A stretch of DNA of 37,591 nucleotides from Chloroflexota bacterium (GTDB taxonomy: Bacteria; Chloroflexota; Dehalococcoidia; JACVQG01; JAHKAY01). The number at the start of each line of letters is the position of its first letter. Position 1 is the stretch's first letter. The position numbers and the translations under genes are program-made. Below are positions 6,758 to 27,670 of the stretch, in pieces. Location: assembly GCA_018825785.1 (NCBI GenBank), contig JAHKAY010000047.1, positions 1 through 37,591 on the forward strand. Direction: 5' to 3'. The notes below the pieces were generated by a model. The model was not told the DNA's origin. It saw only the letters and a program-made list of their open reading frames with translations, and made no database searches.

Positions 6758-6894
6758 GTTCGTACCTCCCAATACTGGACAAGGCTACCCTCAGCTATGA
6801 GGAGCAATAGCAGCAGCAAGGCCCCCGCCGAAAGGAATATATCCATGGTCCTCTTGGCAGGCTCATGAAGCCTTCCGGGGCGGTTAGTCGGCAT
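6748..6894 (-). CDS. small one-helix membrane protein, resembling the N-terminus of a sugar transferase
   Basis: A 48-residue frame with ATG at 6894, preceded by GGAGGTGA at good spacing. It overlaps the end of the phosphotransferase gene by 11 bases and the start of the epimerase gene by 10. The product has a basic N-terminal part (RPGRLHEPAKRTMDIF) and one hydrophobic stretch with GALLLLLLLIAEG, then ends QYWEVRTWR. The KRTMDIFLSAGALLLLL pattern is what the first helix of priming sugar transferases looks like, but the catalytic domain is absent. It may be a remnant of such a gene or a genuine small membrane protein. Translational coupling on both sides argues that it is translated. Confidence 0.5.
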   Translation of the reverse strand: MPTNRPGRLHEPAKRTMDIFLSAGALLLLLLLIAEGSLVQYWEVRTWR

Positions 6895-7786
6895 GGGTCT
6901 CACCTCCGTGGGGAAAGAGCGCAGGGCGGTGTTGCTCCCAACAACTCAGCGCCTCCAGATAGGGACGGGCATAGGGGTGGTGTCGCCCGTAAAGCTCCTC
7001 CATTCTCTGCCCCATTTTCTCCAGGTGTTGGCGGAAGGCCTCCTCCATCTCTTCCCAGCCCAGGCCCAGGAGAGAGGCATACCTTGCCACCAGCTCGGCC
7101 GTTGTCTGGCTGAACCAGCCAGGCGCAAAACAGGCCAACAGGAAGTTCTTCCCTTTCCTCCGCTGCAATTCACCAAATGAGACAAGAAGGGAAAAGATGT
7201 CAAACATGGGAGGGTATTCCTCCCCGAAGTGTTCCCAATCCACCACCCCCACCCCTCCCTTTCCCCGCCAGAGGAGGTTCTGCAGGCAAAAGTCGCCGTG
7301 CTGGGGGGGTGTACCCCCTCCCCGGGCCATGGCCTGGTGGAAGTCCACCAGCCACTGGAAGGCCAGCTCCAGATAGCGGCTGGCCCGGGGAATACTGCCA
7401 TTCCCTATCTCTTCCGGCAGGCGGTGCAGCAAGGGGATCCCCTCTACCGGAGCTTCCACCACTATGGTCTCCATTCCCGCTTCCAGCAGGGCCAAGGGCC
7501 GGGGTATGGAGGCTAGGATGGGGTTCCCTTCCAGCCTCGGGCGAATTAGGCTCAGGGCCCGAAATCCCCGGCGGAGGCGAGCAGCCGCAGGAGGCATCAC
7601 GGCAACCTTGGCCACCGCCATCAGCCTCCCTCGGGGGTCAGTCAGGAAGACTACGACGGCATCCCCAGGCCCGCTTGTTCTGAGGGAGCCCAGAACCTCC
7701 GGGGGGCAAGGCCCTGCCATCTCCAACTCTGCCCAATGACGGAGAAGAAAGTCCCGGGCCATTTCCACCAAGGAGGGAGCCTTCAC
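6884..7786 (-). CDS. APH-fold phosphotransferase (aminoglycoside phosphotransferase/choline kinase superfamily)
   Basis: 300 aa. The catalytic loop reads HGDFCLQNLLWRG (about residue 168 on, Brenner-type HGDxxxxN), followed by GVVDWEHFG, which supplies the metal-binding Asp. These are the hallmarks of the APH/choline-kinase fold, which phosphorylates small-molecule hydroxyls with ATP. Start GTG 7786 is one base after the upstream stop, behind GGAGGGAGGGG. Position after a methyltransferase and ABC exporter suggests modification of a surface polymer or an exported peptide. Resistance is not implied; this superfamily is broad. Confidence 0.75.
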   Translation of the reverse strand: MKAPSLVEMARDFLLRHWAELEMAGPCPPEVLGSLRTSGPGDAVVVFLTDPRGRLMAVAKVAVMPPAAARLRRGFRALSLIRPRLEGNPILASIPRPLALLEAGMETIVVEAPVEGIPLLHRLPEEIGNGSIPRASRYLELAFQWLVDFHQAMARGGGTPPQHGDFCLQNLLWRGKGGVGVVDWEHFGEEYPPMFDIFSLLVSFGELQRRKGKNFLLACFAPGWFSQTTAELVARYASLLGLGWEEMEEAFRQHLEKMGQRMEELYGRHHPYARPYLEALSCWEQHRPALFPHGGETHAD

Positions 7787-8881
7787 CTACCCCTCCCTCC
7801 TGGCCAGGATGAGATAATCGGGGGCCAGCAGAGGCATCAGCCCCAGGCCGGCAGCAAAACGGGCCAGCCTTCCTGCTACCCTCCCTTTCAGAGAGCGCTT
7901 ATGGCGCCACAGGTCCCCCGCAGGCTCCTTCAACAGGGCCCTCTTGTGGAGGGGCAAGATCATCCCCGGGGATATGTATCCCCGCAGAGGCCAGTAGAAG
8001 GTAACCTCCGGGAAACCGGCCTCCTGTAACAACTTGCGATAGCCGCCAAGCCCATAGGTATAGGTTCTGTAGCTATCCCTTGCCTTGCCCGGTGTCCGGT
8101 AGTCACTCCGGCTCAGCTTCACCACCAGGGAAGCCAGCCAGCGGGGCATGAGGGAAGTGTAGGGCAGGCCAGAATGGTCGCGCCTTCCTCGGAAGTTGGT
8201 GTAGCCGAACCTGTTCTCTATTCCGACAAGGAGGACTCCGCCTGGCTTCAGCTTGCTCCTCATGCTTTTCAGCATGGCAAGCTGGGCCTGGCGCGGGTTG
8301 ACTCCCCTCATCCATTCCCCCACCCATTCCAGCACACCTATCATCACCACAGCGTCAAAGGCTGCGTCAGGGAAAGGCAGGTTCGGTAGCGCAGCCTGGA
8401 CCAGCTTCACGTTCTTCAGCCCCTCCTGCTGCATCCGGAACTGCAGGAACCGAAGCCTCTCCGCTATGGGCTCAAGACAGCAGACCATCCCATAATGGTG
8501 GGCCAGCACTTGGGCCACCGCCCCCAGCCCCGCCCCCACATCCAGCACCACCCCCTCAGAGGAGAGAGGAAGAAGAGGAAGCCAGCCAGCGCGGCCACTG
8601 GAGGCGAGGGAGACGTAGGTCGCCGGATCCCGGTCCATCAGCGCGGCGGCAAGAGCCTCCTTCCAGCCCATTTCTTTTGCCTTCTCTGTTAGCTGGAGCA
8701 ACTGCTCCCGGGGGAACTCCCCCCAGTAGGGATAGTCTTCCGCAAAGCACACAATCCCTTCCCTTACCGGCCAGGCTCCCCCGCACCCGGGACAGCTTAC
8801 CCCATCTTTGCCCTCCACTAAGCGGCCCCTGCAGACGGGGCATTCCAGGGGCAGGAAAGGGCTCGTCCTAGTACTGAGCAA
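7787..8881 (-). CDS. SAM-dependent methyltransferase with N-terminal zinc ribbon
   Basis: 364 aa from a TTG at 8881 (AAGGAGGGG just upstream), overlapping the permease end by 14 bases. The N-terminus is a small zinc ribbon (CPVC at about 15 and CPGC at about 31), as in Trm112-like and Rlm-type methyltransferases. It is followed by a class I Rossmann methyltransferase with VVLDVGAGLGAVAQVLA (motif I), a FDAVVMIGVLEWV segment (motif IV region) and KLKPGGVLLVGIENR. The C-terminal third is basic. The substrate is unknown: it could be a lipid-linked sugar or the peptide made by the neighbouring cassette. Confidence 0.8.
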   Translation of the reverse strand: MLSTRTSPFLPLECPVCRGRLVEGKDGVSCPGCGGAWPVREGIVCFAEDYPYWGEFPREQLLQLTEKAKEMGWKEALAAALMDRDPATYVSLASSGRAGWLPLLPLSSEGVVLDVGAGLGAVAQVLAHHYGMVCCLEPIAERLRFLQFRMQQEGLKNVKLVQAALPNLPFPDAAFDAVVMIGVLEWVGEWMRGVNPRQAQLAMLKSMRSKLKPGGVLLVGIENRFGYTNFRGRRDHSGLPYTSLMPRWLASLVVKLSRSDYRTPGKARDSYRTYTYGLGGYRKLLQEAGFPEVTFYWPLRGYISPGMILPLHKRALLKEPAGDLWRHKRSLKGRVAGRLARFAAGLGLMPLLAPDYLILARREG

Positions 8882-9671
8882 GGCTCCCCTCCTTCTTGGC
8901 CTGCCTCACTGCCCGGCGGAAGATCCAAAGGGAAAGCGGCAGCAGCACCACCGCGAAAGCTATCAGGGCCAGTAATTCTGGCAACAGCTGGAGAATGGAG
9001 TAACCCTTGAGCACAGCCAACCTCATGGCCTCCAGGGAATAGGTCAGGGGCAACAGAGCGGAAAACTTCTGCAGGATGTCCGGCAGGACACTTACCGGGT
9101 ACATGACTCCGGCCAGCAACGACTGGACACTGCCAAAGACCCAGGCTATCGGGTCTCCCTTCTTCAACACCAGGACGAAAGCTGCTGAGATGATGCCAAT
9201 TCCGCTGAAAGCGAGGATGGAGAGGACCAGGACCAGGAGGGCGCTGAGGACATTGGCCTGGCTCAGGTCAGCCCCGAAGACCAGGGCCCCGAAGAGCAAG
9301 TATATGATTACGGTGAAACAGTTCATCAGATAGTCCCAAAGGCTGGAGGAGAGGAGGATGGAGCCCAGGCGGGTGGGGCTGAGGAGCATCAACTCCAGGG
9401 TGCCCATGCTCTGCCCCTCCCGAATGGCTCCAGCAAAGCCGCGCAGGGCCAGCCCAGTAAATCCTGAGAAGGCCAGGCCGACAAGGACAAAAGAGAAGTA
9501 GTCCCCGCCATAGGCCTGAAGCTGAGGCGATACCGCCTGGCCGAAGACCCGGGCCACGAAATAGAAGGTGGCCACCCCAAAGAAGATCCCCAAAAACTGA
9601 AGAACGAAGGACACCCGGTAGCTTACGTTCAGGGAGAAGTCACGCTTCAGGAAGGCCAGGGCCACACTCAT
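8868..9671 (-). CDS. ABC-2 type transporter permease
   Basis: 267 aa from ATG 9671, which overlaps the ATPase stop as ATGA; a longer reading frame upstream is only antiframe of the ATPase gene. Six hydrophobic segments are visible (about residues 22-42, 58-78, 110-135, 145-172, 178-200 and 232-255), matching the ABC-2 exporter permease fold. Together with the ATPase it forms an exporter of the type used for polysaccharides, lipids, antibiotics and modified peptides. It is the only exporter in the cassette with the radical SAM gene. Confidence 0.87.
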   Translation of the reverse strand: MSVALAFLKRDFSLNVSYRVSFVLQFLGIFFGVATFYFVARVFGQAVSPQLQAYGGDYFSFVLVGLAFSGFTGLALRGFAGAIREGQSMGTLELMLLSPTRLGSILLSSSLWDYLMNCFTVIIYLLFGALVFGADLSQANVLSALLVLVLSILAFSGIGIISAAFVLVLKKGDPIAWVFGSVQSLLAGVMYPVSVLPDILQKFSALLPLTYSLEAMRLAVLKGYSILQLLPELLALIAFAVVLLPLSLWIFRRAVRQAKKEGSLAQY

Positions 9672-10681
9672 CCCTCGGCTCCTTCCCCCGCCACCGCCGA
9701 CATGAAAATCTCCTCCAATGGGGGCTCCTGGAGGGTGCAGGAGGTGACGTTCGCACCCCTGTAGACCAGGAACCTCAGGACCTCGGGCAAGGCTAGCTGA
9801 CGGTCCGAGAGCTTCAGCTCCAGGTGCCACAGCCCGTCGTCCTGGGCGAGGGTCCGCCATCGGAAGACGCCAGGGATAGCCTCCAGCCCGTCCAGGGCCC
9901 CGTTGTTCAGCTTCTCCACTGTAAGCAGGCATGTCTCCTGCTTCTGGAATAGCCCCCTCAGCTCCGGGATGGTGCCGCAAGCCAGGATCCGGCCCCGGTG
10001 CATAATGGCCAGGCGGTCGCAGAGCTGCTCGGCCTCCCCCAGGTGGTGAGTGGCCAGGACCATCGTTCTCCCCGAGCACACCACCTTATCCCGGAGGAAC
10101 CGGCGCACTGCCCGGGCGCTGAGCGGGTCGAGGCTCCGGGTGGGCTCGTCCACAAAGAGCAGTCGGGGCTGCCCAAGGAGGCCCCGGGCGATGGCGAGCT
10201 TTTGCCTCATCCCCGTGGAATAATTTTGAAAACGCACATCCGCCTGGTCCCGGAGGCTCACCATGTCCAGGAGTTCGTCAATATTCTCCCGCAGACTTGC
10301 CCCGGGGAGGCGATAGAGGGCACCAAAGAACTCCAGGTTCTCCCGGCCGGTGAGTCTCCAGAAGAAGCTCCGCTCCTCGGCGCTGACCAGGCCCACCATC
10401 TCCTTGACCTTCTGCTCGTCCCGGACCACGTCGTGCCCGAAGACGGTCGCCTTCCCCAAGGTGGGCAGGATCAGAGTGCAAAGGAGCTTCATCAGGGTGG
10501 TCTTGCCCGCCCCATTGGGCCCCAGGAGGCCGAAGAGCTCCCCCTCTCTCACCTCTAGGTCCACCCCGGCCACAGCTGTGACCTGCTCCTGGCGGCCCAC
10601 GAGGCCCTGGAACAGGGCCTTGTAGCCCTTTTCCCTGGGGAAGCGCTTGGTCAGGGCGGAGGTCCTGATGGCCAGAGTCAC
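9668..10681 (-). CDS. ABC transporter ATP-binding protein
   Basis: 337 aa from GTG 10681, which overlaps the S26 peptidase stop as GTGA and lies five bases after GGAGGAAAAC. Walker A is GPNGAGKTT (about 49-57), the signature is YSTGMRQKLAIARGL, Walker B LLFVDEPTRSLDP, and the H-loop ATHHLGEAEQLCDR. A further C-terminal domain of about 100 residues follows the ATPase core, as in CcmA/DRA-type ABC-2 exporters. It powers the permease encoded directly downstream. Confidence 0.93.
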   Translation of the reverse strand: MTLAIRTSALTKRFPREKGYKALFQGLVGRQEQVTAVAGVDLEVREGELFGLLGPNGAGKTTLMKLLCTLILPTLGKATVFGHDVVRDEQKVKEMVGLVSAEERSFFWRLTGRENLEFFGALYRLPGASLRENIDELLDMVSLRDQADVRFQNYSTGMRQKLAIARGLLGQPRLLFVDEPTRSLDPLSARAVRRFLRDKVVCSGRTMVLATHHLGEAEQLCDRLAIMHRGRILACGTIPELRGLFQKQETCLLTVEKLNNGALDGLEAIPGVFRWRTLAQDDGLWHLELKLSDRQLALPEVLRFLVYRGANVTSCTLQEPPLEEIFMSAVAGEGAEG

Positions 10682-11187
10682 GTTTTCCTCCAGGTGAATC
10701 TCTGCACACACCGCCAGGGCATGCGGCCAAGACGTATCACCCAGGAGCGGTGCCAGGGGCGCCAGGGAGCGAGCCGGTAGACCGAGAGGTTCAGGAGGCG
10801 ACCCAGCCCCGTGCCCAGCCTCATGCGGCGGCCGTCCCTTTGTATCTCCACCACCATCCCCAGCACCTGCTCCGCCAGGATAGGGGCATCTGCACCAACC
10901 ACGTTGTCCCCCTGGGCGATGAACATGAGTCGGCCATCCTTCTCCACCCTCCGGACGAGGCGGTGAACCATGTGGGAGGTGCCCCCCCGGTGATAGAAGA
11001 TTATCTCCCCCGGCCGGAGCCGGGCCGGGGCCACCGGCTCCACTAGGAGGACATCCCCGCCCCGGATAAAGGGGTGCATGCTCGACCCCCCGGCCTGGAA
11101 GCGGAAACTGCCCCCCCGCCCCAGCACCTCTTGGGCCAGGGCGTGAAAGTCCGAGGAGCTCAGCACCCTGCTATTTGCTTCTGACAT
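10678..11187 (-). CDS. S24/S26-family (signal peptidase-like) serine peptidase
   Basis: 169 aa from ATG 11187; the start overlaps the kinase gene by 17 bases. The box GGSSMHPFIRGGDVLLVEP carries the catalytic Ser of the S26 family, followed by LRPGEIIFYHR, HMVHRLVRR and FIAQGDN, which are the other conserved boxes. His in the HRL box, where classical signal peptidase I has its Lys region, resembles SipW/archaeal-type enzymes. No clear N-terminal transmembrane helix is visible, unlike standard signal peptidases. Lying between an HprK-like kinase and an ABC exporter, next to a precursor-like peptide, it is a candidate leader peptidase; that role is inferred. Confidence 0.78.
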   Translation of the reverse strand: MSEANSRVLSSSDFHALAQEVLGRGGSFRFQAGGSSMHPFIRGGDVLLVEPVAPARLRPGEIIFYHRGGTSHMVHRLVRRVEKDGRLMFIAQGDNVVGADAPILAEQVLGMVVEIQRDGRRMRLGTGLGRLLNLSVYRLAPWRPWHRSWVIRLGRMPWRCVQRFTWRKT

Positions 11188-12061
11188 GATGCAGCACTGT
11201 CTCCACGGCGCTATCGTCAGGCAGAAACCCCAGTTCATAGCTAGGGACTTTCTGGGTCAGCTCGTCAATGAAGCCCAGGATGAACTCCATCCCTGAGGCC
11301 AAGTAGAAAGGAGGGAAACAGCGGACCAGCAGCCGTCTGGCGGCATCCCCTGGGGCCAGGGACTGGATATAGTTCTTCGGAGCTTGCTTTAGGAAATACA
11401 GCCCTTCCAGGGGGGCCTTCCCGGGCAGGGAGGCCCAGGCATCCCCGTGCCAGGGGGTGCCGTGCATGAAGAAGCGGCCCCCCTCTTTGCGAAGAATGAG
11501 GCGGTCATCGCTGAGGATGGGAACTTGCCGCTTTTGCCAAAGGCGGGCCGTGGTGCTCTTCCCCGCCCCTGAGACGCCGACGAAGGCCAGCCCCTTACCC
11601 CCCATGTCTATCCCGCAGGCGTGTATGTCCATCCCCCCCCCTCCCCGCGCCAGATAGTTGACCATAAGAACCTCGTCAAAGGGGTACAATACCGGGCAGA
11701 CAGAGCGTGCCGGCCTGTCGTCCGTGGGCCGAAAGTAAAGGTCCCCCTGGGTGAAGTCCTCCTTGAGGATGGCTAAACTGTAGGGCAGTGGACCAAAGAC
11801 CGGGGAGGTGAAAGAGAAGACGTATTTCCCTTGGGAGCGGTGAAGGGTCCAGAAGCTCCCGGTATCAAACAGCTTCTCCTCCAGCGCCAGCGTGGGGAGT
11901 TGCCCGTAGTGTACCCGGATGAGGATGTCGGCCTGCCCGTCGTCCACCAGGAACCTGGGATGGGCGTCGCTGATCTCGAGGAGCACACTCTCTGAGACGA
12001 ATCTCACTGTCACCCCTGCTATCCTCATCTTCAGTTCTCTGGCCATAATGGTGTCTTTCAC
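11171..12061 (-). CDS. HPr-kinase-like (HprK-type) serine kinase
   Basis: About 296 aa. I prefer the GTG at 12061, seven bases after AAGGAGG, over the ATG at 12067, which touches that site. After an N-terminal beta-rich domain (about 1-120) comes the kinase core: Walker A GVSGAGKSTT (about 162), LSDDRLIL (metal-binding Asp pair, about 184) and HGTPWHGD. No PTS genes and no HPr are in the window, so this is one of the HprK paralogues found beside RiPP and polysaccharide genes. In some lasso peptide clusters such kinases (PadeK, ThcoK) phosphorylate the C-terminal Ser of the precursor; the peptide encoded just upstream also ends in Ser. Confidence 0.8.
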   Translation of the reverse strand: MKDTIMARELKMRIAGVTVRFVSESVLLEISDAHPRFLVDDGQADILIRVHYGQLPTLALEEKLFDTGSFWTLHRSQGKYVFSFTSPVFGPLPYSLAILKEDFTQGDLYFRPTDDRPARSVCPVLYPFDEVLMVNYLARGGGGMDIHACGIDMGGKGLAFVGVSGAGKSTTARLWQKRQVPILSDDRLILRKEGGRFFMHGTPWHGDAWASLPGKAPLEGLYFLKQAPKNYIQSLAPGDAARRLLVRCFPPFYLASGMEFILGFIDELTQKVPSYELGFLPDDSAVETVLHHVRSK

Positions 12062-12108
12062 TTCCATCCCTCCTTCCCCCTGACCCTCCTATGGGACCGG
12101 TGGCTCCG

Positions 12109-12137
12109 GGGCGGCGGGCCCCGAGGGCCCGCCGCCC
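12109..12137 (-). terminator. strong GC hairpin between the peptide gene and the HprK-like gene
   Basis: A perfect 13-bp stem: GGGCGGCGGGCCC (12109-12121), loop CGA, then GGGCCCGCCGCCC (12125-12137). It lies about 60 bases after the peptide stop codon and about 50 before the kinase start, and has no U-run. I read it as a partial terminator or an mRNA-stabilising 3' end that lets the peptide transcript outnumber the downstream genes. Confidence 0.6.
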
Positions 12138-12195
12138 GGTATGACGCCGCCGTCTAGTACCTGAGCCCCGCGCCTACGCTAGTACGGTCGACGGG

Positions 12196-12363
12196 CTAAG
12201 AGCCGACCCACAGGCACTGCCGGCCAGGCGGAACACCGACACAGTCGGCACCCCCGAATCCCGGGCCTTCGTACAGCGCCTCAACCTTGCAGTTGCCAAG
12301 CACGGCCTCGGAAGGCCGCAGCTCAACCATGCTGACCTCAGGTGTTTCGTAAAGACTCTTCAT
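12196..12363 (-). CDS. 55-aa Cys-containing precursor-like peptide (RiPP candidate)
   Basis: The ATG at 12363 is five bases after the radical SAM stop and has AGGGGGTGAT just upstream, so the two are translationally coupled. The product starts MKSLYETPEVSMVEL, then a segment ending SEAVLGNCK, then a Gly/Pro-rich half with GPGFGGADC and PPGRQCLWVGS at the end. Cysteines are at residues 25, 41 and 50; the last residue is Ser. A charged, helix-prone N-terminal half (leader) followed by a Gly- and Cys-rich half (core) is the shape of RiPP precursors modified by radical SAM/SPASM enzymes that form Cys thioether links. The leader motif Y-x-x-P ... L-x-P-x-E-A-V-L looks like a recognition sequence for the adjacent PqqD-like protein. 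The modification itself is inferred. Confidence 0.8.
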   Translation of the reverse strand: MKSLYETPEVSMVELRPSEAVLGNCKVEALYEGPGFGGADCVGVPPGRQCLWVGS

Positions 12364-12368
12364 GCCCA

Positions 12369-13508
12369 TCACCCCCTTTCACCCACAGTATTTGTAGCAG
12401 ACAGCGACGTCTGCGGGGCTCCATGATTCTGTAAGTCCCTCAGCCCATAGGTCTCAACCCGGAGGTGGGCCAGGCGGCAGAGGAAAGGCACCACTGACTC
12501 CGGGTCTCCGTTCTCCTGCTCGGAAAACGGCGGGCACCGCCCGCAGAGGTTCACCAGGTCGCAGTGGAGGCAGGCGAAGTCCTTGGTGCACCGGGTGTTC
12601 TTTACCGCCGGCAGGAACTTCTCCCAGGCCTCGGCAAAGGTGCCCTTACGCAGGTCATAATGGGGATTGCGGGCCTCGATGCAGAGCGAAAGCCGGCCGA
12701 AGGCGTCTACGAAGAAGCTATGCACTCCGCTGCCGCACCAGTAGAGGAACTTAGATTCAATAGGATGCAGGAAGTTCTCTGCGAACTCCCGCCAGGCCCT
12801 CGGCCGGTCCTCATCCTCTAGCTCCAGCTGGATAACCTCTTGAGGCTCCAGCCTTACCCGGTAGGGGTCCTTCATCCCGTCCAGCCTGGGCCATACTATG
12901 GGGTCATAGCGGAACTGAGCGCCCAGCTTCTGAGCATACTTCTGGATGTCACCAATCTCGTGCCGGTTCAAAGTCAAGGCCATAGCCTTTATGACCAGGG
13001 AGATACCACGCTCTGCCAGAAGTTCTATCCCCCGGATAGCCCGGTCGAAGGAGCCGGGGACTCCGGTGACCCGCTCGTAGGTCTCCCTGGTGGCCCCGTA
13101 TAGGGTTATCTCCACGGCCTGTGGCCGCCAGTGATGGAGAAAGTTGGCTATCTCCGGGGTGACCAGGGTTCCGTTGGTAAAAAGGGTAATTAAAAAGCCC
13201 TTCTTCTTGGCATAGGCATAGATATCCAGGAAATCCCGGCGCACCATGGGCTCCCCGCCGGTAATGAGGAGCCACAGGCAGCCCGCCTCGGCTAACTGGT
13301 CCAGGAGATGGCAATACTCCTCGTAGCTGAGCTCCTCCCTATCCGGCTCCACCGGGCAGTGGGTGACATAGCAGTGGACGCACCGGTTATTGCAGCGGGG
13401 GGTTATCTCCAGGGTTCCTTGAAGGGGGATCCTGAGACCCGACACCCTTCTATTCAGCCCAACCCCCCAGTCAGCATAGCTGAAGGAGGGTACCTCACAG
13501 ACCCCCAT
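12369..13508 (-). CDS. radical SAM/SPASM peptide-modifying enzyme
   Basis: 379 aa. CNNRCVHC (Cys 39, 43, 46) is the CX3CX2C cluster motif for SAM cleavage, with ITGGEP at about 82-87 for SAM binding. The C-terminal third is a SPASM-type domain with Cys at 258, 276, 307, 313, 316, 322, 325 and 344 (segment ACLHCDLVNLCGRC), enough for two auxiliary iron-sulfur clusters. Enzymes of this build act on ribosomal peptides (sactipeptide, ranthipeptide, PQQ and related pathways). ATG 13508 lies two bases after the PqqD-like gene, and the peptide gene follows five bases after its stop. This three-gene order is the core of a RiPP locus. The bond formed cannot be predicted from sequence. Confidence 0.9.
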   Translation of the reverse strand: MGVCEVPSFSYADWGVGLNRRVSGLRIPLQGTLEITPRCNNRCVHCYVTHCPVEPDREELSYEEYCHLLDQLAEAGCLWLLITGGEPMVRRDFLDIYAYAKKKGFLITLFTNGTLVTPEIANFLHHWRPQAVEITLYGATRETYERVTGVPGSFDRAIRGIELLAERGISLVIKAMALTLNRHEIGDIQKYAQKLGAQFRYDPIVWPRLDGMKDPYRVRLEPQEVIQLELEDEDRPRAWREFAENFLHPIESKFLYWCGSGVHSFFVDAFGRLSLCIEARNPHYDLRKGTFAEAWEKFLPAVKNTRCTKDFACLHCDLVNLCGRCPPFSEQENGDPESVVPFLCRLAHLRVETYGLRDLQNHGAPQTSLSATNTVGERG

Positions 13509-13510
13509 GC

Positions 13511-13837
13511 CTATGCTTCCCCTTCAACCGGGATGACCATTTTCAGCTCTTCCAGGCGGCTAGCGAAGCGCAGGGTGTCCTTGGTAGCCCTCTCCAGGTC
13601 TACCTCGAATTCCTCCACAATGGTGAGGGCGATATCGGCCACAGGGCGCTTGCCGTCCAGCAGCGCCCAGATACGCGCAGCCACAGGGTTCAGGCTATAG
13701 AAGTAGGCCAACTGGCCTGCTTCCTGGCGGATGGGCACCAGGATGAGCTCACCAGCGATCTTCCTGGCCACCATGTTGCCGTCCTTCTGGTAAACCTTGC
13801 CTATCTTAGAAAACCTTGCCTCTCTAATCTCGAACAC
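13511..13837 (-). CDS. PqqD-like RiPP recognition protein
   Basis: 108 aa from GTG 13837, six bases after GAAGGAGG. After a short N-terminal extension it shows the winged-helix pattern of PqqD: beta hairpin with GELILVPIR, FYSLNPVAARIWALLDGKRP and IALTIVEEFEVDLERATKDT, then a final helix (LRFASRLEELKMV). The N-x-x-A-x-x-I-W-x-L-L-D-G stretch is the family hallmark. Such RiPP recognition elements bind the leader of a precursor and present it to the radical SAM enzyme encoded next. Confidence 0.88.
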   Translation of the reverse strand: MFEIREARFSKIGKVYQKDGNMVARKIAGELILVPIRQEAGQLAYFYSLNPVAARIWALLDGKRPVADIALTIVEEFEVDLERATKDTLRFASRLEELKMVIPVEGEA

Positions 13838-13858
13838 CTTTGCCTCCTTCTCCTCTTC

Positions 13859-13963
13859 TCATTCCTCTGGAGTCGTGGCTGCAAGAGCAGATAAAGCCTT
13901 GCTTCCCTGGCTCTGAACAGCGAGACCAATGCCGCCTGTGGAAAAATGCAGTTCCTCGCTCAT
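13859..13963 (-). CDS. possible 34-aa ORF coupled to glmS
   Basis: The ATG at 13963 overlaps the glmS stop as ATGA, and the frame ends at 13859, 21 bases before the PqqD-like start. The product begins MSEELHFSTGG and ends LAATTPEE; no Cys and no hydrophobic stretch. There is only a weak Shine-Dalgarno. It could be a chance frame that lets ribosomes pass on to the next gene, or a second tiny peptide of the cassette. Confidence 0.25.
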   Translation of the reverse strand: MSEELHFSTGGIGLAVQSQGSKALSALAATTPEE

Positions 13964-20082: not shown

Positions 20083-21972
20083 TTATGGATGGGGGAAGAA
20101 GGTTTCGAGCCAGGTCCCCAGCACCAACAATGCCCAGATGTGGTTGGCGCGGTTCTCACGGCCTGACAGGTGGATGTTGAACATATGCACTATAGCTTCT
20201 TTCTGGAAAAGGGGCCATTGGGTAAGGCAAGTATTGAGCAGGTCTTCCCGGGCCTGGTCCTTCAGGTCGTGGGAAAGCCACCGGTCAAGGGGTACCGCGA
20301 AGCCCCTTTTCCGTTGGGAGGCGACTTCCTTGGGCAGTATCCGTGCCGTGACTTTTCTAAGGAGGTATTTCTTGGTCAGGCGTCTGATTTTCAGGGAGGA
20401 AGGGACCTGGGCAGCAAGCTCCAGGAACTGGTGATCCAGAAGAGGAGAGCGGGCTTCCAGGGCAAAGGCCATTGAAGCGATATCCACTTTGGGTAGCAAG
20501 GCCCCCGGCAGATAGGTCACCATATTTGCGTAGAGGGCCTGGTCAAGGGGGTCATCAACGCCGGAATCCAGAAAGGCCTCCTCCAGCACCTTCAGGGCGC
20601 GGCCCTGCCCTGTCCTGTCTCTGAGCTCTGGTGTATAAAGGTTTGACTTTTCTTCTTCTGAGAAAAAGATCATGGAGCGGATATAGTTGCTATGTGGCTC
20701 ACCAGCGTGGCGAAGGAGATTAGCCGTGGTCTTGAATCGCCTGTTTTGCAGGAGGTACGCGAGGACATCAGACAGGATTGCCGCGGGCTGATTAAGAACG
20801 CCCCCCCCGGTCCATTTCCTCCACTTGGCGGTGAGGGCATGGTAGAGAAGGGCATTGTAGCCGGCAAAGTTTTCGTCTCCCCCGTCGCCATTCAGAACCA
20901 CGGTGACATGCTGGCGGGTAAGGCGAGACAAGTACCAGGTGGGGATGGCGGCGGAGTCGGCAAAGGGCTCTTCATAGTGGCGAACCAGCTCCGGCAGGAT
21001 AGAAAGGCACTCGGGGGTCACGAAGAACTCGTGATGGTCGGTCCCCAGGCCACTGGCTACTGCCCGCGCGTAGGGGAGCTCGTTGTACTCTTTTTCGGGG
21101 AAACCGATGGAGAAGGTCTTCACCGGGCTTGAAGAGAGCCTGGTCATGAGGGCAACTATGGTTGAGGAGTCAATTCCTCCGGAGAGCCACGCACCCAGAG
21201 GGACATCCGCTATCATCCGCACCCTGACGCACTCCTCCAGCTTGGCAAGTATCCTCTCCTCCCATTCCCTTTCGGGGAGGCTGAGCTTCTTGGAGTAGTC
21301 AAGCTTCCAGTACCTTTTTATCTCCAGTTTGCCTCTATGCCAGAGGAGACAATGCCCTGGGGGAAGTTTCCTGATTCCGCTGAAGCCCGTGAGGGGTGCG
21401 GGAACGTACTGGTAGGTCAGGTACTGGTCTATGGCAACCCAGTCAGGTTCCCTGGGAACGCCAGGGTCGGCGAACAGGGCTTTGAGCTCTGAAGCAAAAA
21501 TAAGGAAATCCGGTCCCAGAAAGTACTTGAGGGGCTTCTTACCCACGCGGTCCCGGGCCAGAAGCAGTTTTCCCTGCTTGTCATCCCAGATGGCAAAGGC
21601 AAACATCCCCCGCAAGTATCTCAGACAGTCCTCTCCGTATTCCTTGTAGAGGTAGAGGATCACCTCGGTGTCTGTTCTTGACCGGAAATGGTATCCCTTC
21701 TCCTCCAGGTCTTTCCTCAGTTCTAGGAAGTTGTAGATTTCGCCGTTGTAGGTGATATAGACTGTCTCTTCGGGGTCAGACATGGGCTGGTGGCCCGCAG
21801 GAGAAAGGTCCAGTATGGAGAGCCTCTGGTGCCCCAGTCCGATGGGGCCTCGGGTCCAGACCCCTTTGTCATCAGGCCCCCGGTAGGAAATGGTTCCTGC
21901 CATATTCCTGATGAGCTCGGGGGACACTGCCTTTTGGGGGTCAAAGTACAACTTTCCCACAATCCCGCACAT
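20083..21972 (-). CDS. asnB: asparagine synthase (glutamine-hydrolysing), AsnB type
   Basis: 629 aa. MCGIVGKLYF with catalytic Cys2 starts the glutaminase domain (with RGPDDKG, HQRLSILDLS, YNGEIYNF). The synthase domain carries the PP-loop ATP motif LSGGIDSSTIVA at about 266 and VLNGDGGDENFAGYN. Length and domain order are those of full AsnB, which amidates aspartate, or in polysaccharide loci a sugar acid or other carboxylate. It is flanked by gaps on both sides, so it is a single-gene unit beside the polysaccharide genes. The lasso-cyclase type lacks a working glutaminase domain, so that role is unlikely. Confidence 0.93.
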   Translation of the reverse strand: MCGIVGKLYFDPQKAVSPELIRNMAGTISYRGPDDKGVWTRGPIGLGHQRLSILDLSPAGHQPMSDPEETVYITYNGEIYNFLELRKDLEEKGYHFRSRTDTEVILYLYKEYGEDCLRYLRGMFAFAIWDDKQGKLLLARDRVGKKPLKYFLGPDFLIFASELKALFADPGVPREPDWVAIDQYLTYQYVPAPLTGFSGIRKLPPGHCLLWHRGKLEIKRYWKLDYSKKLSLPEREWEERILAKLEECVRVRMIADVPLGAWLSGGIDSSTIVALMTRLSSSPVKTFSIGFPEKEYNELPYARAVASGLGTDHHEFFVTPECLSILPELVRHYEEPFADSAAIPTWYLSRLTRQHVTVVLNGDGGDENFAGYNALLYHALTAKWRKWTGGGVLNQPAAILSDVLAYLLQNRRFKTTANLLRHAGEPHSNYIRSMIFFSEEEKSNLYTPELRDRTGQGRALKVLEEAFLDSGVDDPLDQALYANMVTYLPGALLPKVDIASMAFALEARSPLLDHQFLELAAQVPSSLKIRRLTKKYLLRKVTARILPKEVASQRKRGFAVPLDRWLSHDLKDQAREDLLNTCLTQWPLFQKEAIVHMFNIHLSGRENRANHIWALLVLGTWLETFFPHP

Positions 21973-22414: not shown

Positions 22415-24934
22415 CTAATTCGCACTCCAGGCGATTTCGAGCATAAGGCCGTCAAGGTATGGATTGGGTGTAACATCGGTTGAATACCCCCATCTCACAG
22501 CCAGGTCATTTACCTTGGCCTGTGTCCAACTCCCGCCTGAAGGTGGAGTAGCGTAGCATTTACTACTGGTATAGATGGCTGTGGTTTGGGAGATATCTCC
22601 AGCGTAGATAATGTCCAGCGTACCTCCATCATCCAACTTCAAGGTGACATTATTGGCCGCGGTACCTCCCGAATGCTGGGCAGAGACAACCATCACACCG
22701 ACAGCATCTGCTAGCTCGGGCGTGTCCTCAAAGTCCACCCTGATGTATGCTGTGTTGCGGATGACCACCTGTTTGGTGTAGTCCGTGATGCCATTGATAG
22801 GCTGTTCATCTAGGAACGAGTGAACATCCCCCGATGGCTGGGCGATGCTATTTGAGTCCTGGTCTTGGAAGTCCCCATCTATGAATGAGTGGTCTCCTGA
22901 AGCATCTGGGGAATATCCCAGCACCTTGATATCACCAAAGGGATAATCAGCTCCTGTGTAGGAAAGGATAATATCATCCACAAGCCAGTCGCCTGTGATG
23001 GCCCCGCCTGCAACTCCGACCGAGAAGGTGGTTATATTAGCGCTAGCCTGAACGCTGGTAGCTTGGGTCTGAGCAACTCCATTCACTCTCCAGTCCAAGG
23101 TTGCGGTAGCCTCGGAGGAGTTGAAGTCAAAGTCAATGACATACCAAGTTCCTGTTGCCCAGGCAGCCCCGTCTACCACAGCGGTAGCACCCATTTTTGC
23201 CTGGAATACACCCGTGTCAAAATTAGGACCTATGACAAAACTGCCGTTTGTGTTGGTGCCTGAAATAACGGTGGTAAGAGCGTACTGGCGAGCTGACCAA
23301 GCATCTATCCTAAACGCAATCCTACCAACCAGTCTGGTAGTAGTGACGGTTTTCCTCAAATAGCCTGATAGGGTCGTGAGATTCCACTCATAGGCCCGTA
23401 ACCCACTACGGACAACTGTAGTGCTGACTGTTGGGGCTGTTCTCGAAACAGCATCCCAATACCTTGTCCCAGGACCAGAGGCCCCTGCGGTCACTATCCC
23501 GCTCTCAGCCCCAGAGATGAAGATGGGTTTGGAAGTAGGAGTGGGAGTCGGAGTGGGCGTAGGTGTGGGCGTAGGTGTGGGCGTAGGTGTGGGCGTAGGT
23601 GTGGGCGTAGGTGTGGGCGTAGGTGTGGGCGTAGGTGTGGACGTAGGTGTGGGCGTAGGTGTGGGCGTAGGTGTGGGCGTAGGTGTGGGGGCGCCGCCTA
23701 CTGCCGCCAGAGCGTTGATGCGCCTTATGCCATATGTCGACCACATAGCGCCCGCCTTATCTGCCATGACCTCTATCTGGTTGCGGACGCTGGTGTTGCT
23801 CTTGCCCCACTGGGGGGTTGCCCACAGCAGGCTGGCCAGACCGGCTACATGGGGGGCGGCCATGGAGGTCCCGTTGAGGGAGCCGTAGTTCAGAGGACGG
23901 TTGGGAGTAGGCTGGTTGGGAAAAGTTGAGAAGATGGCTACCCCTGGCGCTGCCACGTCCACCCAGTTGCCATAGGTGGAAAAGCTGGCCTTAGCATCGC
24001 TCTGGTCAGTAGCCGCTACCGCGATTACATTGGTGTAGGCCGCCGGGTAGAAAAGAGCATCAGTGCCGTTGTTCCCCGCCGCTGCCACTACCACCACGCC
24101 ACTGTTCCAGGCGTAGTTAATGGCCAATTCCACTGCTTGCGACTGACCGGGACTGCCCAGGCTCATGTTTATGACCTTGGCCCCGTCGTTGGTGCTGGGA
24201 TTGCCATCCGGGTCGGCGGCCCAGCGAATGCCGTCCGCCACCCAGCTGAAGTAGCCGTAGCCCTGGTCCCCTAGGACCTTGCCGTTCATCAGGCTGGAGT
24301 TGAAGCCTACCCCCGCCACGCCAATGCCGTTGTTGGTGGCAGCAGCGGCGATGCCAGCCACATGGGTGCCATGGCCGTTCCTGTCGTCCACCGTGCTGCT
24401 GGTGGTGAAGTCCTTGTTGGCTACAATCTTGGCCGCCAGGTCCTCATGGTCCTGGTCAATCCCCGTATCCAGGATGGCGATCTTGACGCTTGAAGAGCCT
24501 GTAGTGATGTCCCAGGCCTCGGGGGCCAGGATTTTGGCCATGCCCCACTGCTGGCCGAAGGAAAGGTCGTTGGGTGTTTCTATGGCGTAAGCCATATAGT
24601 CAGGCTCGGCGAACTGGACCGACTTCTCGCGGCCGTAGTCCTTCGCCTTCTGCTTGACCTGGCCCGGGGGCACCCTCACCACCTGCACCCCCAGCGCAGC
24701 GATTTCGCCCGCAACTTGGCCGCCATGCCTGCCATGGATATTCCGCTTCGCGGATTCCTCAGTGCCGGGCTCAAACTTGACCAGGATGTGGTCAGGAGCG
24801 AAATCAGCGGTGGCGGGGCTATCACCATTCACGCCAGATATCGCCATAAGAGGCGTAGGGACAAAGAGCCCCGCCAGTAGCCCGAGGATGACCCCTAGCC
24901 GGAGCAACTTCACGAGATACAGTCTAGTGTCCAT
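22415..24934 (-). CDS. secreted subtilisin-like (S8) serine peptidase with PT-repeat linker
   Basis: 839 aa. A signal peptide (about 1-31, hydrophobic [19 protein letters not shown]) precedes an I9-like propeptide ([17 protein letters not shown] to about 115). The catalytic triad is Asp156 (AILDTGID), His188 (NGHGTHVAG) and Ser357 ([13 protein letters not shown]), with the oxyanion Asn in AAAGNNG. A proline/threonine linker (about 416-468) follows, then a C-terminal region of about 370 residues that looks beta-rich, possibly two lectin-like or jelly-roll domains. It is an exported protease, probably anchored or cell-wall exposed through the linker. It lies downstream of a tiny Cys-rich peptide gene and HprK-like kinase, so a role in cutting an exported peptide is possible but unproven. 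Confidence 0.93.
23559..23690 (-). repeat. 12-bp tandem repeat (11 units) encoding the PTPT linker
   Basis: Eleven copies of GTAGGTGTGGGC (plus strand) with period 12, one unit carrying a change that gives Ser. More degenerate units extend left to about 23537. In frame it codes for alternating Pro and Thr. Such arrays gain and lose units by slippage without shifting the frame. Confidence 0.95.
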
Positions 24935-26476: not shown

Positions 26477-27535
26477 TTACAGACCATCGTCGCAGACCGA
26501 GGTAACCAAGGCTACCGTTCTATCCAGGTCTCCCGAGAGGAGCTCGTAGCACCGGGCATTATCACAGAGCCGAGCCGCAGCTTCAGTCCTGGTGAAGCTG
26601 CGGCTCTCTCTGGGAGCAATCGTCCAGAAGTTCCCAGCCTTGAGTAGCCTTTCCGTCGCCTCGGGAGCAGCTATCGGTGTCAGCCGGGGAAGGGCCGAGT
26701 CCTGGCGGCTGAGAAGGAAAAGGAAGGACGCCCTGGCCGGTTCTCGGGTCACCGGGAAGCCCAGGTTATTCAGGCTCACCAAGTGCCTTTTCTCCTGCCT
26801 CCACACCACATCGTCGCTCTCCAAGACGGCTCCCAGCTCGGGGAACAGGCTGGCCGCTTCAGGTTTGAAGCTGATCCCCCGGGGGAAAGGAAAGACCTCC
26901 AGGGATGCAGGTGCAAAGAGGCCAAATTCGTCACTCAGGTACCTGAAGCCGCTCCGGACTAGGGCGTAGGAAAGCACGCTTTTTCCGCTATTAGGGGGGC
27001 CGCTGATAAGCAGGGCCTGGCCATTCTTGCCGACTACTCCGGCATGCACCAGGCTGAGTTGGGGGAGGAAGTGCATAACAAAGTGGAAGACCAGGAATTC
27101 CACGCCGGCGGTCAAGTCAATATACGTTGAATCAATCTCGTTAATCTGGTAGAAATGGTGTCCCTCCCCGGACGGGTCTGGCACAGCCACTTCTTGGATA
27201 TAGCTCGTGGCCTTTTTCCAGCCAGAGCAGGGCCCAAACTTGTTTAGCAGTGCTGTCCTCCAGCCATCAAAGCTGGCTGGCACCCGGGCAAAGACCAAAT
27301 TCTTGCCAAGCGGATGGGGTCTCTCCTTGACCCGGATGGTCATCTCCAAGTGCGGGTATTCTACATCATAGTCCCGGAAGAAGTGATAGACACTATTCAA
27401 GCCGGAGACTACCCCGGCGTCTTCTGACCTTATCCTGACCTTGACCCCGTAAAAGTCATAGCTAGCTTCAGTGTAATGGCCACCGTCCAATCCAGCCAAC
27501 CCCAGTTCTTCCGGCGCTTCCGATTCCGTTAGCAA
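26477..27535 (-). CDS. HPr-kinase-like kinase (second copy)
   Basis: About 352 aa from a TTG at 27535, six bases after AGAAGGGGG; the frame extends to 27610 but that part contains the hairpin at 27570-27600. After a beta-rich N-terminal domain (about 20-160) come VHAGVVGKNGQALLISGPPN, the Walker A GPPNSGKS (about 179-186), and LSDEFGLF (metal-binding acid pair, about 204), then PFPRGISFKPEAASLFPELG. The layout matches the HprK-like paralogues that accompany peptide clusters. It is clearly diverged from the copy at 11171, and the preceding peptide gene differs too. The likely substrate is a peptide or protein Ser/Thr; this is inferred. Confidence 0.72.
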   Translation of the reverse strand: MLTESEAPEELGLAGLDGGHYTEASYDFYGVKVRIRSEDAGVVSGLNSVYHFFRDYDVEYPHLEMTIRVKERPHPLGKNLVFARVPASFDGWRTALLNKFGPCSGWKKATSYIQEVAVPDPSGEGHHFYQINEIDSTYIDLTAGVEFLVFHFVMHFLPQLSLVHAGVVGKNGQALLISGPPNSGKSVLSYALVRSGFRYLSDEFGLFAPASLEVFPFPRGISFKPEAASLFPELGAVLESDDVVWRQEKRHLVSLNNLGFPVTREPARASFLFLLSRQDSALPRLTPIAAPEATERLLKAGNFWTIAPRESRSFTRTEAAARLCDNARCYELLSGDLDRTVALVTSVCDDGL

Positions 27536-27569
27536 TGCTATCCCCCTTCTGTCGGTCTGACCGAGTTGC

Positions 27570-27600
27570 GCTCTGGGCCAGCTATGAGCTGGCCCAGAGC
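27570..27600 (-). terminator. perfect hairpin between peptide gene 2 and HprK-like gene 2
   Basis: GCTCTGGGCCAGCT (27570-27583), loop ATG, AGCTGGCCCAGAGC (27587-27600): 14 paired bases without mismatch. It begins about 70 bases after the peptide stop and lies about 35 bases before the kinase start. There is no U-run, as with the hairpin at 12109. Confidence 0.65.
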
Positions 27601-27670
27601 CGCATGTCACTCTTGGTCCAGACTTGTCAATATTCGCCTTTGCCCCCTAAGGGGAGCTGCGCCCCAAGAG

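Follow-up and report, generated by a model that had tools for sequence, protein, structure and literature searches.

The nine-gene cassette and its surroundings

The window, by which we mean the whole analysed stretch of 37,591 nucleotides of Chloroflexota DNA, contains nine cassette genes at 6884-13837, all on the minus strand and mostly with overlapping or abutting ends. Sugar and polysaccharide genes flank them: one side has epimerases and a sugar transferase, the other has glmS, a glmU-like gene and a phosphomutase. The original prediction, that consecutive genes with overlapping starts lie between sugar-precursor and polysaccharide genes, is borne out in both respects, with coordinates at or very near those it gave. 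The features are as follows.

13511..13837, minus strand: PqqD-like RRE (RiPP recognition element); PF05402, 8e-15
12369..13508, minus strand: radical SAM (rSAM)/SPASM peptide maturase; PF04055, 1e-23
12196..12363, minus strand: precursor peptide, 55 aa, 3 Cys; leader profile match, 1.9e-8
12085..12195, minus strand: G+C-rich hairpin between the peptide and kinase genes; folding energy
11171..12067, minus strand: putative HprK-like peptide kinase; weak TIGR04355/TIGR04249 matches, HprK/PEPCK fold
10678..11238, minus strand: archaeal/ER-type signal peptidase (SpI); TIGR02228, 54.9 bits, cut-off 51.85
9668..10711, minus strand: ABC exporter ATPase, DrrA type; PF00005, TIGR01188
8868..~9670, minus strand: ABC-2 exporter permease (start approximate; ORF open to 10079); PF12698/PF01061
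7787..8881, minus strand: class I methyltransferase; PF08241
6884..7786, minus strand: APH-type phosphotransferase; PF01636
28871..30106, plus strand: PF14907 nucleotidyltransferase; PF14907, 3e-56

Rfam and tRNA scans of the whole window gave no matches.

The RRE-family profile matches the lasso RREs TbiB1 and PbaB1 in the PDB, as well as LppB, the RRE of the linear polyphosphorylated peptides (LPP). The residues N50 and D87, kept in 36 and 34 of 44 sequences, are the apparent equivalents of N33 and D70 of LppB, as read from motif spacing. The rSAM protein holds the CxxxCxxC motif and the full seven-Cys SPASM pattern; within its clade the former is present in 51 of 51 members and the SPASM cysteines in 37-51 of 51. 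It scores under the cut-off of every named maturase model, with a weak match to the mycofactocin maturase. In the rSAM tree the cassette clade is split from AhbD-like enzymes with support of 100/98. Phyla are scattered within this clade, a distribution that is compatible with transfer without proving it.

The HprK-like protein has no Pfam match above thresholds. Its AF2 model (pLDDT 93.8) resembles PEPCK and HPr kinases, and of 40 relatives, 39 keep H149, 39 keep K170 and 37 keep D187. The catalytic residues S53, H92 and D111 of the SpI are found in 31 of 31 relatives, and the closest PDB match is SEC11. The peptidase is a member of the archaeal/ER-type SpI family, which includes the LPP leader peptidase LppS, an SpI of the same archaeal type (PMC13381572), and it is the probable leader peptidase of the cassette. 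Homologues of both exporter proteins occur in the Dehalococcoidales cassette L035 (ATPase, 3e-123; permease, 2e-100).

The original prediction had counted the methyltransferase and the APH-type gene among the members of the unit. This part was not upheld, as neither gene is conserved beside related cassettes and both look local: one weak methyltransferase match was obtained there (L011, 6e-4) and no APH-type homologue was found. The Pfam families seen most often in the flanks of related cassettes include neither of the two. At E <= 1e-20 the methyltransferase has a single class relative, whose locus also contains a sugar transferase and epimerases. Judging from their position, the two genes are co-transcribed with the cassette, but they probably stand outside its conserved part.

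The PF14907 nucleotidyltransferase gene, located 15 kb from the cassette on the opposite strand, is a possible cassette partner. It may serve either HprK-like kinase of the window. The second of these kinases is encoded at 26477-27610 on the minus strand and comes closest to the model TIGR04352 (HprK-related kinase A), with 85.7 bits against a cut-off of 200; the only RRE found in the window is that at 13511. The minus strand also carries a secreted subtilase whose linker is a long Thr-Pro repeat (22415-24934) and an Asn-synthase-type amidotransferase (20083-21972), whose best match is TIGR03108, the XrtA/PEP-CTERM system amidotransferase (615.7 bits, below the cut-off of 816.9). The latter was rejected as a lasso cyclase (263.9 vs 525); an exopolysaccharide amidotransferase fits better.

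The precursor family and the recurrence of the cassette

The peptide ORF has its first ATG at 12369, overlapping the rSAM stop codon. A second ATG, at 12363, is preceded by a purine-rich stretch and yields the 55-aa peptide MKSLYETPEVSMVELRPSEAVLGNCKVEALYEGPGFGGADCVGVPPGRQCLWVGS. Its leader contains the motif YETPEV, and its predicted core is CKVEALYEGPGFGGADCVGVPPGRQCLWVGS, in which the C-terminal Ser (-CLWVGS) is the sole Ser/Thr. By itself the peptide matches no curated family. The hairpin that follows the gene folds at -67.1 kcal/mol (z -2.9), has no T run and might serve as an attenuator or stabilise the mRNA.

Scanning the genomes of 84,980 species yielded 80 loci. Genes were counted within 6 kb of the rSAM gene in the best 35 loci (L007-L041) and in a control set of 37 lower-scoring rSAM loci (L047-L086 minus L052, L075 and L084). 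An RRE was found in 34 of the best 35 loci, the HprK-like kinase in 31, SpI in 23 and PF14907 in 15, and the corresponding numbers for the control set are 3, 0, 0 and 0; the counting profiles were built from the very loci counted, so that detection favours the family, and related loci among the rows are not independent and inflate the counts. Some of the genes missing from the 35 loci are accounted for by short contigs. Because the RRE, rSAM, peptide, HprK and SpI genes recur jointly across many phyla, the cassette is not a chance array.

By RpoB, compared with 20 named genomes, the window's own genome comes closest to Chloroflexota MAGs (71-73%), which places it weakly. The hosts of related cassettes lie mostly outside Bacillota. 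They include Nitrospirota, Actinomycetota, Acidobacteriota, Verrucomicrobiota, Lentisphaerota, Deltaproteobacteria, Omnitrophota, Elusimicrobiota, Planctomycetota, Chloroflexota and one Clostridia MAG. The gene set is thus present in about a dozen phyla, many of them known from MAGs alone, and since most hosts are MAGs, single bin labels may be wrong. Two genomes of the same family as the window's host lack an rSAM relative at E <= 1e-30; one of the two keeps the pair of glmS and glmU-like genes, with no cassette gene seen adjoining. The host genome itself has a second cassette on another contig (L003/L006), with the order HprK-RRE-rSAM-peptide and from a different clade. This second cassette (L003 1340-3831) adjoins trxA/trxB-like genes, and its peptide has one Cys and ends in -RDGE. 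A plasmid collection contained no close relative of the cassette, and its single rSAM match (27%) lies in a YcaO cluster. On the Thiodictyon plasmid pTs417 (L089 5710-11787) an rSAM relative annotated as PqqD family is followed by a second rSAM, an amidohydrolase, YcaO and TfuA; this region is a RiPP locus of a different kind.

A leader profile was seeded with YxxP-bearing ORFs adjoining cassettes and run on 19,343 short segments from all loci, controls included. It detected 39 distinct precursors in 32 loci, all of which are cassette loci, and none in the control loci. Many of them were absent from the seed; these come from L009 (two), L012, L014, L016, L018, L027, L030 and L033, and include second copies in L028, L038 and L044. 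The original prediction of a radical SAM RiPP cassette had named in advance, as a result that would speak against it, a peptide never conserved with the SPASM enzyme in other genomes. This comparison was carried out and the prediction survived it, as these precursors demonstrate.

Most precursors of the window clade follow the pattern [Y/W]xxPx[V/L/I/C]xxVxLxxEExVLxxCK...C...C...S/T. A Ser/Thr C-terminus is found in 24 of 26 window-clade precursors and in 9 of 13 from the second clade. Of 35 cores that are less than 50% alike, 29 end in Ser/Thr, and each of the 15 preceding positions has Ser/Thr in 2-10; for comparison, 9.6% of the large ORFs of the same loci end in Ser/Thr. Six of the 39 precursors have no Ser/Thr end, including that of the second cassette of the host genome, where the kinase is present. 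In L024 a precursor ends in -GS and no kinase was found nearby. Second-clade precursors are sometimes poor in Cys (one in L006, two in L035), so cross-linking through Cys may not be general.

Relation to known systems

LPP were described in Nat Commun 2026 as products of clusters with an RRE, an HprK-like kinase and an archaeal-type SpI; they are reported as limited to Bacillota, and the paper mentions no radical SAM enzyme (PMC13381572). The window has a discrete PqqD-like RRE, an HprK-like kinase and an archaeal-type SpI in one cluster, as LPP clusters do, and shares with LPP the YxxPxV leader motif, an exporter and a polysaccharide neighbourhood. A nucleotidyltransferase is also frequent in LPP clusters, and PF14907, of this kind, occurs in 15 of the 35 related cassettes; that of the window lies 15 kb from the cassette. 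The LPP leader consensus YxxPxVLxHQxIxFETxxS is, however, not matched, as the window sequence YETPEVSMVELRPSEAVLGN keeps YxxPxV only. Furthermore, LPP are linear and made without a cyclising enzyme, whereas the window has an rSAM/SPASM gene between the RRE and peptide genes, and the LPP exporter is MsbA-like, whereas that of the window is an ABC-2/DrrAB-type pair.

SynChlorMet (NCBIfam TIGR04248-TIGR04251), whose family note describes rSAM, PqqD-like and HprK-like genes, likewise shares PqqD-like, HprK-like and rSAM/SPASM proteins with the cassette. To our knowledge, and according to the family note, it has no known precursor, and the term SynChlorMet had no match in open-access papers. In authentic loci, SpI, PF14907 and ABC genes are present too, together with Cys-rich ORFs that have a YxxP leader. 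Membership of the window was rejected on scores of 27.4 vs 100 for TIGR04248 (ScmD), 30.4 vs 125 for TIGR04249 (ScmC), and 85.3 and 72.1 vs 400 for the rSAM on TIGR04250/51 (ScmE/F). Among the 297 genomes sampled around L015, 9 have a TIGR04249 match above the cut-off. L102-L105 contain the complete set (RRE, two rSAMs, HprK, SpI, ABC and PF14907), the other fetched loci being partial; the window differs from them in having one rSAM/SPASM protein. YxxP ORFs with Gly/Cys-rich cores occur in five of eight SynChlorMet loci (L100, L101, L103, L105 and L107). Their cores are longer than that of the window or Gly/Cys-repeat-like, never with Ser/Thr as the last residue, and the profile matches them weakly (E 0.36 at best) or not at all, so these ORFs are precursor candidates only.

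The phosphorylated lasso peptides paeninodin and pseudomycoidin (PMC9266682) have in common with the cassette an RRE, a [Y/W]xxP leader, a nucleotidyltransferase, an HprK-like kinase with a His-Lys-Asp-Asp site and a precursor with C-terminal Ser/Thr. In the window this site corresponds to H149, K170, D187 and D188, and the precursor ends in -WVGS. The cassette has an rSAM instead of the macrolactam cyclase and SpI instead of B2. A lasso peptide was rejected, as no cassette gene has a Pfam match to the Asn-synthase-like cyclase or the B2 protease. Sactipeptides and ranthipeptides are characterized by a SPASM maturase, an RRE and a Cys-containing core, all of which the window has; the rSAM differs in its scores below the named maturase cut-offs. 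We know of no kinase or SpI in these classes.

The original prediction had not recognised the gene combination as a described class. Since LPP combine RRE, HprK and SpI, and SynChlorMet combines RRE, HprK and rSAM, the core set is not wholly unknown. The locus itself fails membership in both and is counted as a variant apart from them.

Proposed pathway and alternative explanations

As a whole, the locus is best explained, and quite probably so, as encoding a ribosomal peptide that would be tailored by the rSAM enzyme and the kinase, cut by SpI and exported by the ABC-2 transporter. From the observed gene set, precursor motifs and catalytic residues we infer the following reactions, their order and a biological role. 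The RRE would bind the precursor through the YETPEV leader motif. The SPASM enzyme would then make at least one cross-link in the core, most likely from the three cysteines, and the HprK-like kinase would add one or several phosphates to the C-terminal Ser. For the +80 Da shift foreseen in the original prediction, this Ser can thus be named as the candidate acceptor. The SpI-like peptidase would cut off the leader, with a probable cleavage site directly ahead of the CK motif, and export of the product would fall to the ABC-2 transporter. The nucleotidyltransferase may then elaborate the phosphate, and the methyltransferase and the APH-type gene, if involved, would be local additions. The probable site of action of the product, or its partner there, is the cell-surface polysaccharide that the neighbouring genes make. 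Several of these steps have precedent in other systems: RRE capture of [Y/W]xxP and leader removal by SpI have been tested, with LppS and LppK acting on a YxxP-led precursor (PMC13381572), and the C-terminal Ser of lasso peptides is phosphorylated by PadeK, ThcoK, SyanK and PsmK (PMC9266682).

The kinase might instead target an internal Ser/Thr or mainly license SpI, the C-terminal Ser/Thr being kept for export, recognition or a similar function. LppK modifies S3 of its core and SpI cleaves the LPP precursor poorly when it is unphosphorylated (PMC13381572), and the candidate SynChlorMet precursors have no C-terminal Ser/Thr although ScmC is present. This reading is nonetheless unlikely, as Ser/Thr is enriched at the last position only and the window core has no other Ser or Thr. 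Somewhat more room is left for a non-thioether product of the rSAM enzyme, such as a C-C or C-O link, an epimerisation or an oxidation, with the cysteines serving as disulfides or metal ligands. The scores of the enzyme under all named maturase cut-offs and the one or two Cys of some related precursors agree with it, but what is conserved in the core is mainly Cys, with at least three in 32 of 39 precursors, and we consider such a product possible but doubtful.

PqqD and a SPASM enzyme also form the core of the PQQ and mycofactocin systems, and the weak match of the rSAM to the mycofactocin maturase would suit a peptide-derived cofactor or redox carrier. The exporter, the SpI-type leader peptidase, the variable cores and the patchy distribution better fit an exported RiPP, which makes a cofactor quite improbable. 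The least probable explanation is that the cassette genes serve to make polysaccharide and that the small ORF does not represent a gene. The position of the cassette within a polysaccharide locus and the lack of a curated family match for the peptide alone are in line with it; it is contradicted by leader and core motifs in 39 precursors from many phyla, with the same enzymes adjoining.

Beyond the exported, tailored peptide proposed for this locus, we see even chances that the cassettes represent a cross-phylum RiPP class. In such a class an rSAM/SPASM enzyme and an HprK-like kinase would act on one YxxP-led precursor, giving cross-linked, C-terminally (poly)phosphorylated and possibly decorated peptides. 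In the open-access papers searched, we found no radical SAM RiPP cluster described as having an HprK-type kinase. The locus links the lasso, LPP and radical SAM RiPP lineages via one shared recognition-kinase module, and candidate precursors are now available for the SynChlorMet cassette. A testable prediction is that a peptide modified by a radical SAM enzyme also carries phosphate on its C-terminal Ser/Thr. The recurrence of the same assembly in about a dozen major groups points to a widespread, largely undescribed family of modified peptides. If the proposed class holds true, a single RRE-kinase logic with an exchangeable cyclisation module would underlie LPP, the phosphorylated lasso peptides and SynChlorMet as its variants.
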